IMG/VR virus record: IMGVR_UViG_3300009184_000015
Location: 1 to 35,069 of that record
Source: a virus
DNA: 35,069 nt
Reading direction: 5' to 3' (one strand)
Shown here: piece by piece, positions 4,148 through 31,524 of the stretch
How positions within the stretch are numbered: the first letter of the stretch is position 1
How the letters are laid out: each line of letters starts with the position of its first letter
Made by a program: the position numbers and the translations under genes
The notes under the pieces: model-generated
What the model was told of the DNA's origin: nothing
Database searches by the model: none
What the model saw: only the letters and a program-made list of their open reading frames with translations

Positions 4148-4398
4148 GCGGCCTCGAATCTAGGAACGACGCCAACCAGTTTCCCGTCCATGATCTCGAA
4201 GAGAATCATCTTGGCCAGGTTTAGAGTTTGCCTGGCCCGCTCATCCATGCCGCTGGCAATCTCTTCCTGGGCGTCGGACATCAAGCCAGCGACAACCATT
4301 GACGCGCCACTTAGCTGGTAAGTCGCGCTACTCTTGACGCTATCCAGGTAAATATCAGGATCGCAACCGAACATTTTTAACGCTACGTCTTTTTCCAT
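4144..4398 (-). CDS. Hypothetical helical protein (84 aa)
   Basis: Not recognised. Predominantly helical by eye, starting MEKDVALKMFGCDPDIYLDS and containing MSDAQEEIASGMDERARQ followed by a hydrophobic LNLAKMILFEIMDG helix. No catalytic motif. It has its own AAGGAG ribosome-binding site and overlaps the next gene by four bases. Its composition matches neighbouring minus-strand genes. Confidence 0.7.
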   Translation of the reverse strand: MEKDVALKMFGCDPDIYLDSVKSSATYQLSGASMVVAGLMSDAQEEIASGMDERARQTLNLAKMILFEIMDGKLVGVVPRFEAA

Positions 4399-6542: not shown

Positions 6543-8441
6543 ATGACGGAATTGGTACAACACATAGAACAAGTCGCCCAGTATTTTTGGGGCGAACCAA
6601 ATACGAAGTTATCCAAACCTGGTAAAGAGATCCGGTTTGGAACCCATGGGTCCAAGTCAATCGATCTTGAAAAGGGAACCTGGTATGACCACGAACAAAA
6701 CGAAGGCGGCGGCGTATCAGATCTCATCAAGAAAGAAACTGGGGGCGCGAAGATCGAAGCCTGGATGAGTGAAAACTTAGGCATCCATCTCACGCCCAGG
6801 GCAAGCAAGACAGAAGATCTTAGGCCCATCATCCCGCGTCGCATCAAAGAAGTCTATCCGTACGTCAATGCGTACGGCGAGATCGTTTACGAAGTCATTC
6901 GCTTTGAGCCAAAAGACTTCCGGCAAAGGCGCCTGGAGAATGGCAAACACGTATGGAACCTTCAAGGCGTTACGCCCTTACCTTACAACCTTCCAGCTAT
7001 CCTGGAGCATCCGAGAAAGACTATCTTCCTGGTCGAAGGGGAGAAGGATGTCGAGGCCCTAAAGAAACTGGGATTGCTGGCATCTTGCAACTCAGGCGGT
7101 GCCAAGAAATGGACCCAGGATTTGAACCCGCATTTTGCCGGGCGCAAGATCATCGTATTGCCGGACAACGATGAGGCCGGCCGCAATCACGCTAAAGTCC
7201 TGGTCGAGCAATTGGCCAGCGTTGCCCAGGAAGTCCGCATCCTGGAACTGCCGAACCTGAAAGAGAAGGCCGATGTATTCGATTGGATACAGGACGGCGG
7301 ATCGAAGGACCAGCTGGTACAACTGGCCAAGGTCGCGCCCCTGGCAAAAGATTGGCAAGCACCCGTTAGCCCGCCCAGGTTACGCATTCTCACGTTAAAA
7401 GAGATCGCGCAATTGCCGCCAGTCACCTGGCTAGTCAATGGATTGATCCCAAAACAATCCCTGGCCATGATCTACGGCGAACCTGGCGGCGGTAAAACTT
7501 TCACGGCGCTAGATATTGCGCTTACCGTTGCACACGGCGCGCAATGGCATGGCCATGAAGTTACCAGGGGGCAAGTATTCTACGTGGCCGGCGAAGGCGT
7601 TGGCGGATTTAGAAAGCGGATCGGAGCCTGGCATCTGCATCACGAACGCGAAGAGCAAGCGCCATTCTTTCTGATTCCTAAAGCCGTCAACCTACTGGAT
7701 GACAACGAAATCTTGGACCTACTGCAAACGATCGAGACAACCAGGGACCCGGAACTCCCCGTCGCGATGGTGATATTCGATACGGTAGCTCGGTGCATGA
7801 TCGGCGGCGATGAGAACTCCGCCCAGGACATGGGAAAAGCGGTTAAGAACATGGACCTGGTACGCGAGGCCCTGGGGTGCGCCGTACTGCCCATCCATCA
7901 CTCCGGAAAAGATAGCAACAGAGGTGCCAGGGGATCTACTGCCCTCATAGGTGCCGTGGATGTCAGCATCAAAGTAGAGCGCGATAACGATCGCCTACTG
8001 CTCACCACCGAGAAACAGAAGGACGCCGAACCGTTACAACCGATGCAATTTAAGACGATCAGCGTTGAGCTGGCCACCGGTCCCTTGTCCCTGGAAGCGG
8101 AAACCAGCCTGGTATTGGAAGCCACCGACCAGCCAGCGGACATCGTGGCCAGGAAGAAGCTATCGGGCCAGCAAAGACTTATCCTGGACGCGTTGCACGA
8201 TGCGCTATCGAACGCCGGGGAACAGAGATCGATCGGCAACTACATTCCGAAGGGTTACTACTCGGTGAGCGAATCATTGTGGCGCGACTTCTCGATGAGC
8301 AAACAGATCAGCGATGGATCGGAAGATAGCAAGAAGAAAGCATTTTTACGCGCCGCGAAAGCGCTCCAGGAACGCGGCATTGTTGGCAAGTGGGACGATT
8401 ATTGTTGGATATGGAAGGACAGGCATGAACCTAAATTATGA
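6543..8441 (+). CDS. Primase-helicase (TOPRIM plus RepA/AAA_25 ATPase)
   Basis: A 632-residue fusion for replication fork opening and priming. The TOPRIM part has VEGEKD (Glu165) and LPDNDEAGR (Asp208, Asp210). The RecA-type motor has Walker A GEPGGGKT (312-319), a Walker B-like VIFDTVAR near residue 405, and the HHSGKDSNRGARGS motif typical of RepA-like hexameric helicases. The zinc-ribbon seen at the N-terminus of T7 gp4 is absent, so template recognition must differ or priming may be lost. The C-terminus (from about 540) is a helical, winged-helix-like tail. No Shine-Dalgarno is seen: the bases before ATG are the T-run of a terminator. Confidence 0.9.
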   Translation: MTELVQHIEQVAQYFWGEPNTKLSKPGKEIRFGTHGSKSIDLEKGTWYDHEQNEGGGVSDLIKKETGGAKIEAWMSENLGIHLTPRASKTEDLRPIIPRRIKEVYPYVNAYGEIVYEVIRFEPKDFRQRRLENGKHVWNLQGVTPLPYNLPAILEHPRKTIFLVEGEKDVEALKKLGLLASCNSGGAKKWTQDLNPHFAGRKIIVLPDNDEAGRNHAKVLVEQLASVAQEVRILELPNLKEKADVFDWIQDGGSKDQLVQLAKVAPLAKDWQAPVSPPRLRILTLKEIAQLPPVTWLVNGLIPKQSLAMIYGEPGGGKTFTALDIALTVAHGAQWHGHEVTRGQVFYVAGEGVGGFRKRIGAWHLHHEREEQAPFFLIPKAVNLLDDNEILDLLQTIETTRDPELPVAMVIFDTVARCMIGGDENSAQDMGKAVKNMDLVREALGCAVLPIHHSGKDSNRGARGSTALIGAVDVSIKVERDNDRLLLTTEKQKDAEPLQPMQFKTISVELATGPLSLEAETSLVLEATDQPADIVARKKLSGQQRLILDALHDALSNAGEQRSIGNYIPKGYYSVSESLWRDFSMSKQISDGSEDSKKKAFLRAAKALQERGIVGKWDDYCWIWKDRHEPKL

Positions 8442-8559
8442 GCTAAATGTAAGGGTTAACCCTATAAAAGACGGACAAAACGGACTTGTCCGGAGCCTGT
8501 GGATAACTTTGCTGGCGGACATTGACGGACAACACGGACAGACAAGGAGAACCAAATGA
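8425..8559 (+). CDS. Possible small protein across the repeat region (44 aa)
   Basis: Short frame starting MNLNYELNVRVNPIKDG with an AAGGA ribosome-binding site at good spacing. It overlaps the end of the helicase gene by 17 bases and the next gene by four (ATGA), which favours real translation. The body contains DGQ and GQ repeats only because the DNA holds CGGACA repeats. It is basic at the end and unrecognised. It may exist mainly to keep ribosomes moving across a DNA-level element. Confidence 0.45.
   Translation: MNLNYELNVRVNPIKDGQNGLVRSLWITLLADIDGQHGQTRRTK
8498..8506 (-). promoter_or_regulatory. Consensus DnaA box
   Basis: TTATCCACA on the minus strand, identical to the high-affinity bacterial DnaA box, lying inside the CGGACA repeat cluster. 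A single exact match alone could be chance; its location between helicase gene and iteron-like repeats makes recruitment of host DnaA plausible. Confidence 0.55.
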
Positions 8560-9236
8560 ATACAAGGGTTGTAGGGCGACGGACAAAGACGGACAAGGGA
8601 GCGCCAAGCACGGACAGACATTTCTCCTCTCTAGGAGAATGTCCTGTCTTGTCCGGCGGACCAGTTGATGCGTTGGATCGTTGGAAAGATTTAAACCAGG
8701 TGAAGATTTATCGTGATGAGTTGAATCGATTTAATGAAACCTGGGGCTATACAAGATCTTTCACTTTGTGCGGCGATGAGTTGGCAAGCAAGCTCCGCAA
8801 ACAAATGACGCTTATCCAGGAGACGGCCAGGGATGCTAAAGCGGGATATCTTGTCGAGCAGAGATGCGAGGCAATGATCCGGGGATTGCGCCTGGCAGAT
8901 CAAAGGATCCGCGAAGCTGGACACCAACCCGTGGACCGGACCGAGTGGCAAGCGGAACATCCGGCCGGGTTAGTAGTGAAACTGGTACGAACACGGGCCG
9001 CGATACCCCAGGATTCAGATTACGCGTACTTCGCCCTGGAAGATGTGGTCAAGTGGATCCCCAAGGAAGTGATCGAGCTAACCAAGCAATTCCCTGGGTC
9101 GTCAACGGTCAAGGTAACAACGGCCTTCGAGCAGATCCGCAAATCAACCGAAGAACGCCTGGCACGTGAGGCCGCGACGCCGAAGGTCAAGACGGGCGAC
9201 ACAATAATGGACCTGGACGATGACATCCCATTCTGA
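8556..9236 (+). CDS. Replication-block protein with SSB-type C-terminal tip
   Basis: A 226-residue protein of unknown fold. Its last residues, MDLDDDIPF, are nearly identical to the C-terminal tip of E. coli SSB (MDFDDDIPF), the peptide that docks exonuclease I, PriA, RecQ, RecO and other partners. The body does not look like an OB fold: it is mainly helical with DELASKLRKQMTLIQETARD and RCEAMIRGLRLADQRI. Start at 8556 has AAGGAG six to seven bases upstream. It follows the iteron region, and its first codons contain part of the repeats and hairpin. It may be a helicase loader, origin binder or SSB mimic; none is proven. Confidence 0.75.
   Translation: MNTRVVGRRTKTDKGAPSTDRHFSSLGECPVLSGGPVDALDRWKDLNQVKIYRDELNRFNETWGYTRSFTLCGDELASKLRKQMTLIQETARDAKAGYLVEQRCEAMIRGLRLADQRIREAGHQPVDRTEWQAEHPAGLVVKLVRTRAAIPQDSDYAYFALEDVVKWIPKEVIELTKQFPGSSTVKVTTAFEQIRKSTEERLAREAATPKVKTGDTIMDLDDDIPF
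8613..8648. other. Long imperfect stem-loop beside the iterons
   Basis: Arms pair over 15 bp with one bulged base on each side: GACAG-ACA-TTCTCCT against AGGAGAA-TGT-CTGTC, loop CTCT. It lies within the coding start of the SSB-tip gene and directly adjoins the last CGGACA copy. Single-strand initiation or regulation of translation are both possible. Confidence 0.5.
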
Positions 9237-9897
9237 GAAACCAAAGACACGCAAGTATTCGATACTCCCGGCGAGATCCGTCCAGGATGACAGTTTGCAC
9301 CCAACGACCTTCCGGGTCCTGGCCGCAATCTGTTTGCATACGAACGGATACGGCATTTGCTTTCCATCCAGGGAGACACTAGGCAGACACGTCAGCAGAT
9401 CGATTAAAACCGTCTCTACGCACGTCGGACGACTAATCAAGGCCGGGTATATCAGAAAGCTCCAACCAAAGGCCTATCCCTTTGCATTTCGCCGCAGATC
9501 AGCCTACTTCACGAATCGCTACCAGGTACTCTTCGATGGTCCTGGAACACCGATGCCGACCAGGGAGCAATTCCTAGCCGCAAGGCCTCTAATCGCAGAG
9601 GATGACGAATACCGGGAAGAGATGGACGACCTCAATAATAAGAAGGGGGGTATGGGGGGTGATAGCGAGCTAGTTCAGAGTATTGCTCAAGCATTCCGCC
9701 AGGGCGTCGAACGCGGGTCCGGCGTGGTCCGCGACGTGGCGGCAAGCCTGGAATGCGCCAGGCGACTGGCAGATAAGGGCGTGGATGCCGGCAAAGTGCT
9801 GGAGCTGGCAGTCCAGGCGACCATCGACAACCGGAAAAACCGCAAGGATCCACCGATGACGCTGGACCAAGTGGCAAAGTGGGGCGGATTAGAGTGA
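9220..9897 (+). CDS. Winged-helix replication protein (HTH_36-like)
   Basis: A 225-residue protein. Residues 20-80 form a helix-turn-helix of the type common in plasmid and phage replication initiators: HPTTFRVLAAICLHTN, then FPSRETLGRHVSRSIKTVS and HVGRLIKAGYIRK. A linker of Gly/Met follows, encoded by two G6 runs, and then a helical C-terminal domain (ECARRLADKGVDAGKVLELA). It overlaps the preceding gene by 17 bases. It is the best candidate to bind the CGGACA repeats, by analogy with iteron-binding initiators, but this is inference. Confidence 0.75.
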   Translation: MTSHSEKPKTRKYSILPARSVQDDSLHPTTFRVLAAICLHTNGYGICFPSRETLGRHVSRSIKTVSTHVGRLIKAGYIRKLQPKAYPFAFRRRSAYFTNRYQVLFDGPGTPMPTREQFLAARPLIAEDDEYREEMDDLNNKKGGMGGDSELVQSIAQAFRQGVERGSGVVRDVAASLECARRLADKGVDAGKVLELAVQATIDNRKNRKDPPMTLDQVAKWGGLE

Positions 9898-29889: not shown

Positions 29890-31524
29890 ATGGCTGATTT
29901 TCCAATATCACCCGTAGTGCGACGTGTAGTCTATACCGGCTCGGCTGGTACTGGACCCTATGCGTTCACCTTTGAAATATTGGCACAAACTGATATCGAC
30001 GTATATGTTGATTCAACTTTAAAAACGCTGACAACGGATTACACGGTAACAATCAATGCGAACGGTACCGGATCAGTCACTTTTGTTACTGCTCCTGGAT
30101 CCACTAAGCGGATCACGATTGTTGGTGCCAGGGATATTACCCGTGCATCTGACTACGTAACTGGTGGCGACTTTACTGCGGCATCCCTAAATTTAGAGCT
30201 GGACCAGCAAACCATTTTTAATCAGCAAAATGCTGAATCATTGGGTCGTGCGATCTTGGCTCCAGTAACGGACCCGGCCTCTATCAATATGGTATTGCCG
30301 GTGCAAACTTCCCGCGCCGGAAAGATCCTGGCATTTGATTCGACTGGTAATCCTACGGTCGGAGAAGAGATCGGTAACTGGCGTGGTAACTGGGCCGCTG
30401 GTCAAGCTTATACCGTCCGTGACCTGGTAAAAGATTCTAGTAACTCAAACGTATATCGCGCTAATACTGCTCATACTTCTGTTGGCACAACGCCAATCAG
30501 CTCGAATGCTGATTCTGCTAAGTGGGACCTGGTAGTGGACGCGGCATCAGCTGGTGCATCTGCATCTGCCGCCGCGGCATCAGCAAGTGCGGCCGCTAGT
30601 TCAGCGAGTGCGGCCTCTACTTCTGCATCGAACGCCTCAACATCGGCCAGCAATGCGTCAACTTCTGCAAGCTCCGCTAGTACGTCGGCCAGCAATGCGT
30701 CAACTTCGGCAACGAACGCGTCTAACTCAGCAACATCGGCTAGTACGTCCGCCTCAACTGCAACGACACAAGCGAGCAATGCGTCAACTTCTGCGTCGAA
30801 TGCGTCAACAAGCGCAACGTCGGCCAGCAATAGCGCGTCAACTGCTACAACCCAGGCGACTAATGCGGCTACATCAGCAAGCGGCGCATCAACAAGTGCA
30901 ACGAACGCCAGCAACTCCGCTAGTTCTGCCAGCACTTCTGCTACGAATGCGTCTAACTCGGCCAGCTCGGCCAGCACTTCTGCCAGCAATGCGTCAACCA
31001 GCGCAACGAACGCGGCGGCAAGTGCGGCATCTGCCCTGGCCGCTTTAGATGACTTTACCGATACTTACCTGGGCGCGTTTTCTACGGACCCAACTTTAGA
31101 CAATGATGGTAATGCGCTATCTGCTGGTGACTTATATTTCAATACCGTCTCAAATCGTTTAAAGGTATATAGCGGATCTGCCTGGTCATTCGCGATTGTT
31201 GATACAACAACCGTCGTCACAAAAACAAGCTCTACTGGAGCGGCCATTATCCCAGCGGGTACAACTGGCGAGCGTGATGGCTCACCGGCCAATGGTTACT
31301 TTAGATACAATTCCTCGCTCGCATCCTTTGAGGGATATGTTGGTGGCGCCTGGGGTGGAGTGGGTGGCGCACAAGCTGGCGGCGTTATCTTTGAAAACTC
31401 ATTAACGATTAGCGCAAACTACACGCTATCAACCAGCAAGAATGGATTGAGCGTAGGCCCGGTCACAATCAATAGCGGCGTATCGGTAACGGTACCAAGT
31501 GGACAAAGGTGGGTAATATTATGA
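29890..31524 (+). CDS. Tail fibre with T7-like N-terminus and Ala/Ser-rich shaft
   Basis: A 544-residue fibre. Residues 1-150 match the T7 gp17 attachment domain (RRVVYTGSAGTGPYAFTFEI, DYVTGGDFTAASLNLELDQQ). Residues 150-215 form a small beta domain (NWRGNWAAGQAYTVRDLV). About 218-380 is a long Ala/Ser/Thr/Asn repeat built on SASNAST- and SATNASN-like heptads, which predicts a trimeric helical shaft. The end is a short beta tip. It lacks a large receptor domain, so the following genes probably form the distal parts. AGGAGA ribosome-binding site. Confidence 0.88.
   Translation: MADFPISPVVRRVVYTGSAGTGPYAFTFEILAQTDIDVYVDSTLKTLTTDYTVTINANGTGSVTFVTAPGSTKRITIVGARDITRASDYVTGGDFTAASLNLELDQQTIFNQQNAESLGRAILAPVTDPASINMVLPVQTSRAGKILAFDSTGNPTVGEEIGNWRGNWAAGQAYTVRDLVKDSSNSNVYRANTAHTSVGTTPISSNADSAKWDLVVDAASAGASASAAAASASAAASSASAASTSASNASTSASNASTSASSASTSASNASTSATNASNSATSASTSASTATTQASNASTSASNASTSATSASNSASTATTQATNAATSASGASTSATNASNSASSASTSATNASNSASSASTSASNASTSATNAAASAASALAALDDFTDTYLGAFSTDPTLDNDGNALSAGDLYFNTVSNRLKVYSGSAWSFAIVDTTTVVTKTSSTGAAIIPAGTTGERDGSPANGYFRYNSSLASFEGYVGGAWGGVGGAQAGGVIFENSLTISANYTLSTSKNGLSVGPVTINSGVSVTVPSGQRWVIL
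30541..31041 (+). repeat. Degenerate tandem repeat encoding the fibre shaft
   Basis: About 500 bases built of imperfect units such as GCGTCAACTTCTGC and GCCAGCAATGCG, all encoding Ala, Ser, Thr and Asn with Gln rarely. Such repeats can expand or contract by recombination and change shaft length. The opposite strand is also open over this stretch for the same low-complexity reason. Confidence 0.75.

Follow-up and report, generated by a model that had tools for sequence, protein, structure and literature searches.

A repeat array within the replication operon

The window analysed here is a whole IMG/VR virus record of 35,069 nucleotides from a podovirus-like temperate phage, with genes for a serine recombinase, a RecE-like exonuclease, an Arc-like repressor and a head-tail connector. 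On the plus strand, positions 6543–8441 encode a 632-residue primase-helicase (Pfam AAA_25, 5e-41; Toprim_2, 4e-6; PHROG primase/helicase families). It is followed by a gene (8556–9236) for a helical protein that ends in an SSB-like C-terminal tip (DLDDDIPF), and by a gene (9220–9897) for an HTH_36/O-like replication protein (Pfam HTH_36, 8e-11; PHROG O-like).

Across the start codon at 8556 lies an array of short repeats, all of whose elements fall within 8472–8662, with the exact units in 8472–8655. Iteron set 1 (8472–8540, plus strand), which is conserved in the related loci L002–L018, contains direct CGGACA at 8472, 8516, 8526 and 8535, the one-mismatch unit CGGACT at 8481 and an inverted TGTCCG at 8487. 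Iteron set 2 (8580–8616, plus strand) contains direct copies at 8580, 8590 and 8611, giving seven in all. A second inverted copy lies at 8650, and further units with one mismatch are found at 8539, 8615, 8640 and 8657. Spacing within the triple 8516/8526/8535 and within the pair 8580/8590 is 9–10 bp. The first-pass annotation had described such an array, with its variants and spacings, as crossing a gene junction, and both points are borne out. The density is unlike that of chance sequence: counting non-overlapping hexamers per 146 bp, the window has seven copies of CGGACA, against a maximum of five in 200 first-order Markov sequences with the dinucleotide make-up of the window (maxima of three copies in 142/200, four in 57/200 and five in 1/200).

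Other elements accompany the units. An exact DnaA-box-like TTATCCACA lies on the minus strand at 8498–8506, reading TGTGGATAA on the plus strand, as previously annotated. The 45-bp gap between the two sets is conserved, and its spacer (8541–8579, plus strand), which contains AAGGGTT, is tentatively a site of opening or priming; at about 55% AT, against 65% in the flank at 8420–8459, it is not strikingly AT-rich in the window. The array ends in a hairpin (8613–8655, plus strand) with CCTCTCTAGG at its centre (8626–8635), inverted units at 8640 and 8650, and imperfect arms GACAGACATTTCTCCT/AGGAGAATGTCCTGTC at 8613–8648; the stretch folds as single-stranded DNA with z = -4.0. An intrinsic terminator was considered for this hairpin and rejected, as no T run follows it and it lies inside a gene. 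The hairpin was one of two flanking structures in the first-pass annotation, and it stands; the other, a 12-bp palindrome (AGGGTTAACCCT, 8452–8463), is present in the window but reads AGGGTTTACCCT in L004 and is lost in L015–L018, and was therefore left out of the parts of the origin. GC skew along the window is uninformative, with no switch at 8.5 kb and its only change near 5 kb at divergent operons. Clustered TGCGTCAACT-like and GCCAGC repeats also occur at 30654–30983, inside a long ORF (29890–31524); these are probably protein repeats and not an array of the origin kind.

Conservation and common layout

The array is kept in the close relatives L002–L014, and in relatives whose 9220-type protein is 72–76% identical it persists with CCGGACA as its unit and with two to four DnaA boxes. 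Where that protein is 47–55% identical, place and layout are kept and the units are CGCACA, GTGACA, CGAACA or GGGACA. Other units among relatives of the primase-helicase are CGCACG, ATCACA, GTTGCA, CCTTAC, GGTTAA, CGGGAA and TCATCA. Conservation of repeat spacing, which had been suggested as a check, thus holds at about 10 bp though the unit differs by lineage.

Arrays of at least six copies are found at the 3′ end of the primase-helicase gene in 68/90 related loci and in 15/601 control tiles, and arrays of at least eight copies in 59/90 and 4/601, respectively. About a quarter of the related primase loci have no array by this test, which counts against the explanation proposed below. In bacterial genomes 42 of 75 primase-helicase loci have at least six copies in some 3 kb of DNA, a count that comes from a wider stretch with no separate control and in which a few matches are probably coding repeats; the units there include CGGGACA (Ancylobacter), CTGACGCA (Roseomonas) and CGATACG (Bradyrhizobium). 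Cultured phages with arrays include Idiomarinaceae phage 1N2-2 (GGTACA), Alteromonas PB15 (GGTTCA), Rhizobium 16-3 (GTGACA) and RHph_N65 (GCGGAGAT). The E. coli Dhillonviruses also have arrays, all with the one unit GCGGGACA, and so offer no swap; in the Dhillonvirus JLBYU60 the array directly follows the primase-helicase gene. By the same test, no array was found beside the RepA-like gene of Kagunavirus Bas71, Jerseyvirus S119, Vibrio phage 1244, mycobacteriophage Thonko or Microcystis phage Mae-JY30. A Manatee Spring phage genome (L148) has a GGGACA array at about 6550–6810, 1.4 kb from its RepA-like gene.

Across 40 non-redundant groups, which represent 20 unit types, distances between same-strand neighbours peak at 9–12 bp (36, 28, 25 and 20 counts), or about one turn of the helix. 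A CCT N0-4 AGG element is present in 26/40 non-redundant arrays and in 159/1302 control tiles, and the CCT-nn-AGG hairpin is often kept across lineages with different units. GGGTT, seen in the window at about 8564–8570, recurs in the spacers of lineages with different units; it occurs in 25/71 of the longest gaps, a count inflated by kinship, and is a possible priming or opening site.

A predicted winged helix at the primase-helicase C-terminus

The C-terminal domain of the primase-helicase (8166–8411, plus strand) is predicted to be a winged helix. AlphaFold2 modelling with the C-terminal domains of 39 relatives gives a helix, a strand, two helices and a two-strand wing (mean pLDDT 77, core 85–90, pTM 0.66), the wing corresponding to 8382–8411 in the window. 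The best Foldseek matches are the winged helices of the CRP family and of ORC, which are weak (E 0.04 and up), and searching PDB sequences with a profile of the C-terminal domain returned weak, unrelated matches only.

Within this fold the putative recognition helix, SKKKAFLRAAKALQERG (about 8322–8372), carries the motif R-X-[AV]-[FW]-x-R. The residue at X is K in most proteins associated with GGACA units, M in those with CGCACA and CGAACA, and Q in two of the three lineages with GTGACA, the exception being L162, which has K with GTGACA. This correlation between residue and unit bases is a lead, not a result.

Natural exchange of unit and C-terminal domain

In two natural swaps the array unit and the C-terminal domain of the primase-helicase have been exchanged jointly. 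The first involves the complete Roseobacter phage isolates CRP-811, -821, -823 and -831. The primases of CRP-821 and CRP-823 are 97.6% identical over the N-terminal part and 97.4% over the core, falling to 68.4% over the C-terminal ~110 residues; their arrays are 60% identical as DNA, with units GTATAA and CTACAA, respectively. CRP-821 and CRP-831 are only 79.6% identical over the N-terminal part but 99.1% over the C-terminal part, and their arrays are 98.7% identical. The 8556-type protein is ~90% identical throughout these phages. Across these complete Roseobacter phage genomes, primase C-terminus and array form a clean two-by-two mosaic.

The second swap lies between L098 and L109, phages that are otherwise nearly identical. 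Their primases are 94–100% identical to about residue 500 but only 18–24% identical across the ~100 residues beyond about 550. Identity of the DNA is 24–58% from -356 to about +120 and recovers in the next gene. The unit is CCTTAC in L098 and GGTTAA in L109, and the hairpin core CCCTATAGGG is kept. Since both sequences are contigs from metagenomes, this case might reflect a fault of assembly, whereas the Roseobacter phages are isolates.

A pair test over 76 loci agrees with the swaps. Pairs with C-terminal domains at least 80% identical comprise 79 with the same unit and none with different units, while for the helicase core the corresponding figures are 91 and 8, for the 8556-type protein 63 and 7, and for the 9220-type protein, at 70% identity or more, 114 and 0; these are counts, not probabilities, because units were sorted into classes by hand, using the top hexamers, and related loci are counted repeatedly.

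As the coding DNA for the C-terminal domain adjoins the array, a single recombination tract might transfer the two through linkage alone. The two might then move together only through adjacency, with the array serving as a partition, packaging or recombination site for some other reader, and in most loci the array does physically adjoin the primase gene. However, the gene that adjoins the array just as closely on its other flank does not vary with the unit, and in L122, L126, L133 and L136 the array is 0.5–2.4 kb away from the primase. Repeats phased at ~10 bp beside a helicase gene are also a better fit to an origin, and we consider the adjacency explanation highly improbable. The swaps instead point to the C-terminus of the primase-helicase as the seat of origin specificity, and joint exchange together with the predicted winged helix makes this domain the most likely reader of the array.

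Other candidate readers

The 8556-type protein was first suspected of reading the array, which in the rearranged loci L122, L126, L133 and L136 lies at the start of its gene instead of beside the primase. It was rejected in this role since near-identical copies (homologues 85–91% identical) adjoin different units, and since no homologue is present in five of the seven array-bearing phage genomes searched whole. Homologues occur in about 40 loci, with tips DDDIPF or DDEIPF that could recruit partners of host SSB. No Pfam or PHROG name was found for the family, and its predicted helical fold has no match in the PDB. A BFVD entry 92% identical to the protein bears the name terminase small subunit, which is probably an error.

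The position of the array relative to this gene also bears on whether it is an origin at all. An array that extends over the beginning of the 8556 gene, and that in L122, L133 and L136 lies just upstream of its homologue, might serve the operon as an operator or other regulatory site to which the primase-helicase or some other protein binds; initiators commonly repress their own genes. Against this, arrays are found in replication modules where the 8556-type gene is absent, the two iteron sets with a hairpin resemble known origins, and the domain that apparently reads the array is part of a helicase-primase. An array with regulation as its function in place of replication seems quite unlikely.

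The first-pass annotation proposed the 9220–9897 winged-helix protein as initiator. An origin bound by this protein, in the way that lambda O binds its iterons and with DnaA assisting, would accord with its O-like family and its place in the same operon. Its recognition helix varies along with the unit, the unit is always common to the similar pairs counted above, and DnaA boxes are conserved in the clade of the window. However, no HTH_36 protein above the family cut-off was found in any of the seven complete array-bearing phage genomes searched (0/7), and a 9220-type homologue was not detected in many array loci. The Roseobacter unit switch took place without an HTH_36 protein, and it is the primase C-terminus that tracks the array. 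The protein is thus unlikely to be the general reader, and may possibly be an accessory factor or helicase loader.

A part for host DnaA, also proposed earlier, survives in a restricted form. Boxes matching TTATCCACA occur in all 13 of the arrays tested from the clade of the window, with two to four copies in L015–L018, but arrays outside this clade have none, two of them holding a weak variant. DnaA is therefore at most a local, clade-specific addition. The four copies in L018 lie beside its array in about 110 bp (around 4200–4310), two in each orientation.

The proposed origin and its relation to known systems

The repeats at 8472–8655 are very probably the replication origin of the phage. 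That the replication operon contains an iteron-type origin was the central claim of the first-pass annotation, and this claim gains from the comparison, array and spacing being kept while neighbouring proteins diverge. Two marks of such origins can be recognised in the sequence, namely short direct repeats (seven units) at about helical spacing and an adjacent gene whose product, judged by position and joint exchange, would be an initiator specific for them.

It is likely that the primase-helicase binds this iteron origin with its C-terminal winged helix. The sequence itself shows the array, with its spacing and conserved place, and the joint exchange of unit and domain; the fold is predicted, and the steps from binding to replication are a proposal built upon them. 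In this proposal the 6543–8441 protein would bind CGGACA iterons about one helical turn apart, and several copies would gather on the two sets flanking the ~45-bp spacer. The DNA would open at either spacer or hairpin, after which the helicase part would be loaded onto the strands, and the primase part would synthesise the first primers. In the clade of the window, host DnaA may aid opening through the one to four DnaA boxes.

More tentatively, and with rather less confidence than in the origin of this phage, the arrays may represent a very widespread phage and prophage origin type in which reader domain and iterons form one exchangeable cassette of about 450–550 bp. Specificity could diversify rapidly through a simple code relating amino acids of the recognition helix to bases of the unit, of the kind hinted at by the K, M and Q variants of the helix motif, perhaps as an escape from replicon interference when other phages or satellites co-infect. 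Most phage origins are unknown and hard to find by sequence because origins do not align, whereas an origin of this type can be found by place and layout even after complete change of the repeat. Because arrays occur in phages that infect Roseobacter, Rhizobium, Alteromonas, Idiomarinaceae and E. coli, origin function, specificity and replicon incompatibility are open to direct tests in laboratory hosts.

The closest parallels are found among mobile elements and satellites. In SaPI Rep and SCCmec Cch2 the C-terminal domain recognises short iterons just 3′ of its own gene (PMC7581432), and the pri-rep-ori of Gram-negative PICIs, which drives plasmid replication, contains two iteron sets (PMC6092414). 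An initiator helicase whose C-terminal domain appears, from sequence, to act on iterons directly downstream is common to the former and to the phages described here, and two iteron sets around a spacer to the latter. The Rep and Cch2 helicases, however, are of the DUF927 or D5/Primase_Cterm type, whereas here a RecA-fold AAA_25 (RepA-like) helicase is joined to Toprim; PICIs are satellites with another initiator family, whereas the arrays described here are carried by complete phages as well as many prophages and come in a far greater number of unit types. Searches of the literature turned up no account of such an origin, which is weak evidence of novelty as subscription journals lay largely outside the scope of the search, and the main text of the roseophage paper mentions neither the primase nor the repeats (PMC12629253).

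Other systems share parts of this arrangement. The primase-helicase alpha of the satellite phage P4 has a C-terminal origin-binding winged helix that reads short iterons, much as predicted here, but its primase type differs, its helicase is of SF3, and its origin is split into ori and crr. With AAA_25 and Toprim as its best-matching families, and not DUF927, D5 or SF3, the phage protein is therefore best described as working like SaPI Rep, the PICI initiator and P4 alpha without belonging with them; the C-terminal domain as determinant of origin specificity, indicated here by the natural swaps and the predicted fold, is the shared feature. The lambda origin likewise has its iterons in the replication operon and partly within coding sequence, and an O-like protein does accompany the array in the window, but the reader here is apparently not O-like. 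RSF1010 also combines iterons with a RepA-like hexameric helicase; there the iterons are read by a separate protein, RepC, whereas in these phages the reader is apparently fused to the helicase.
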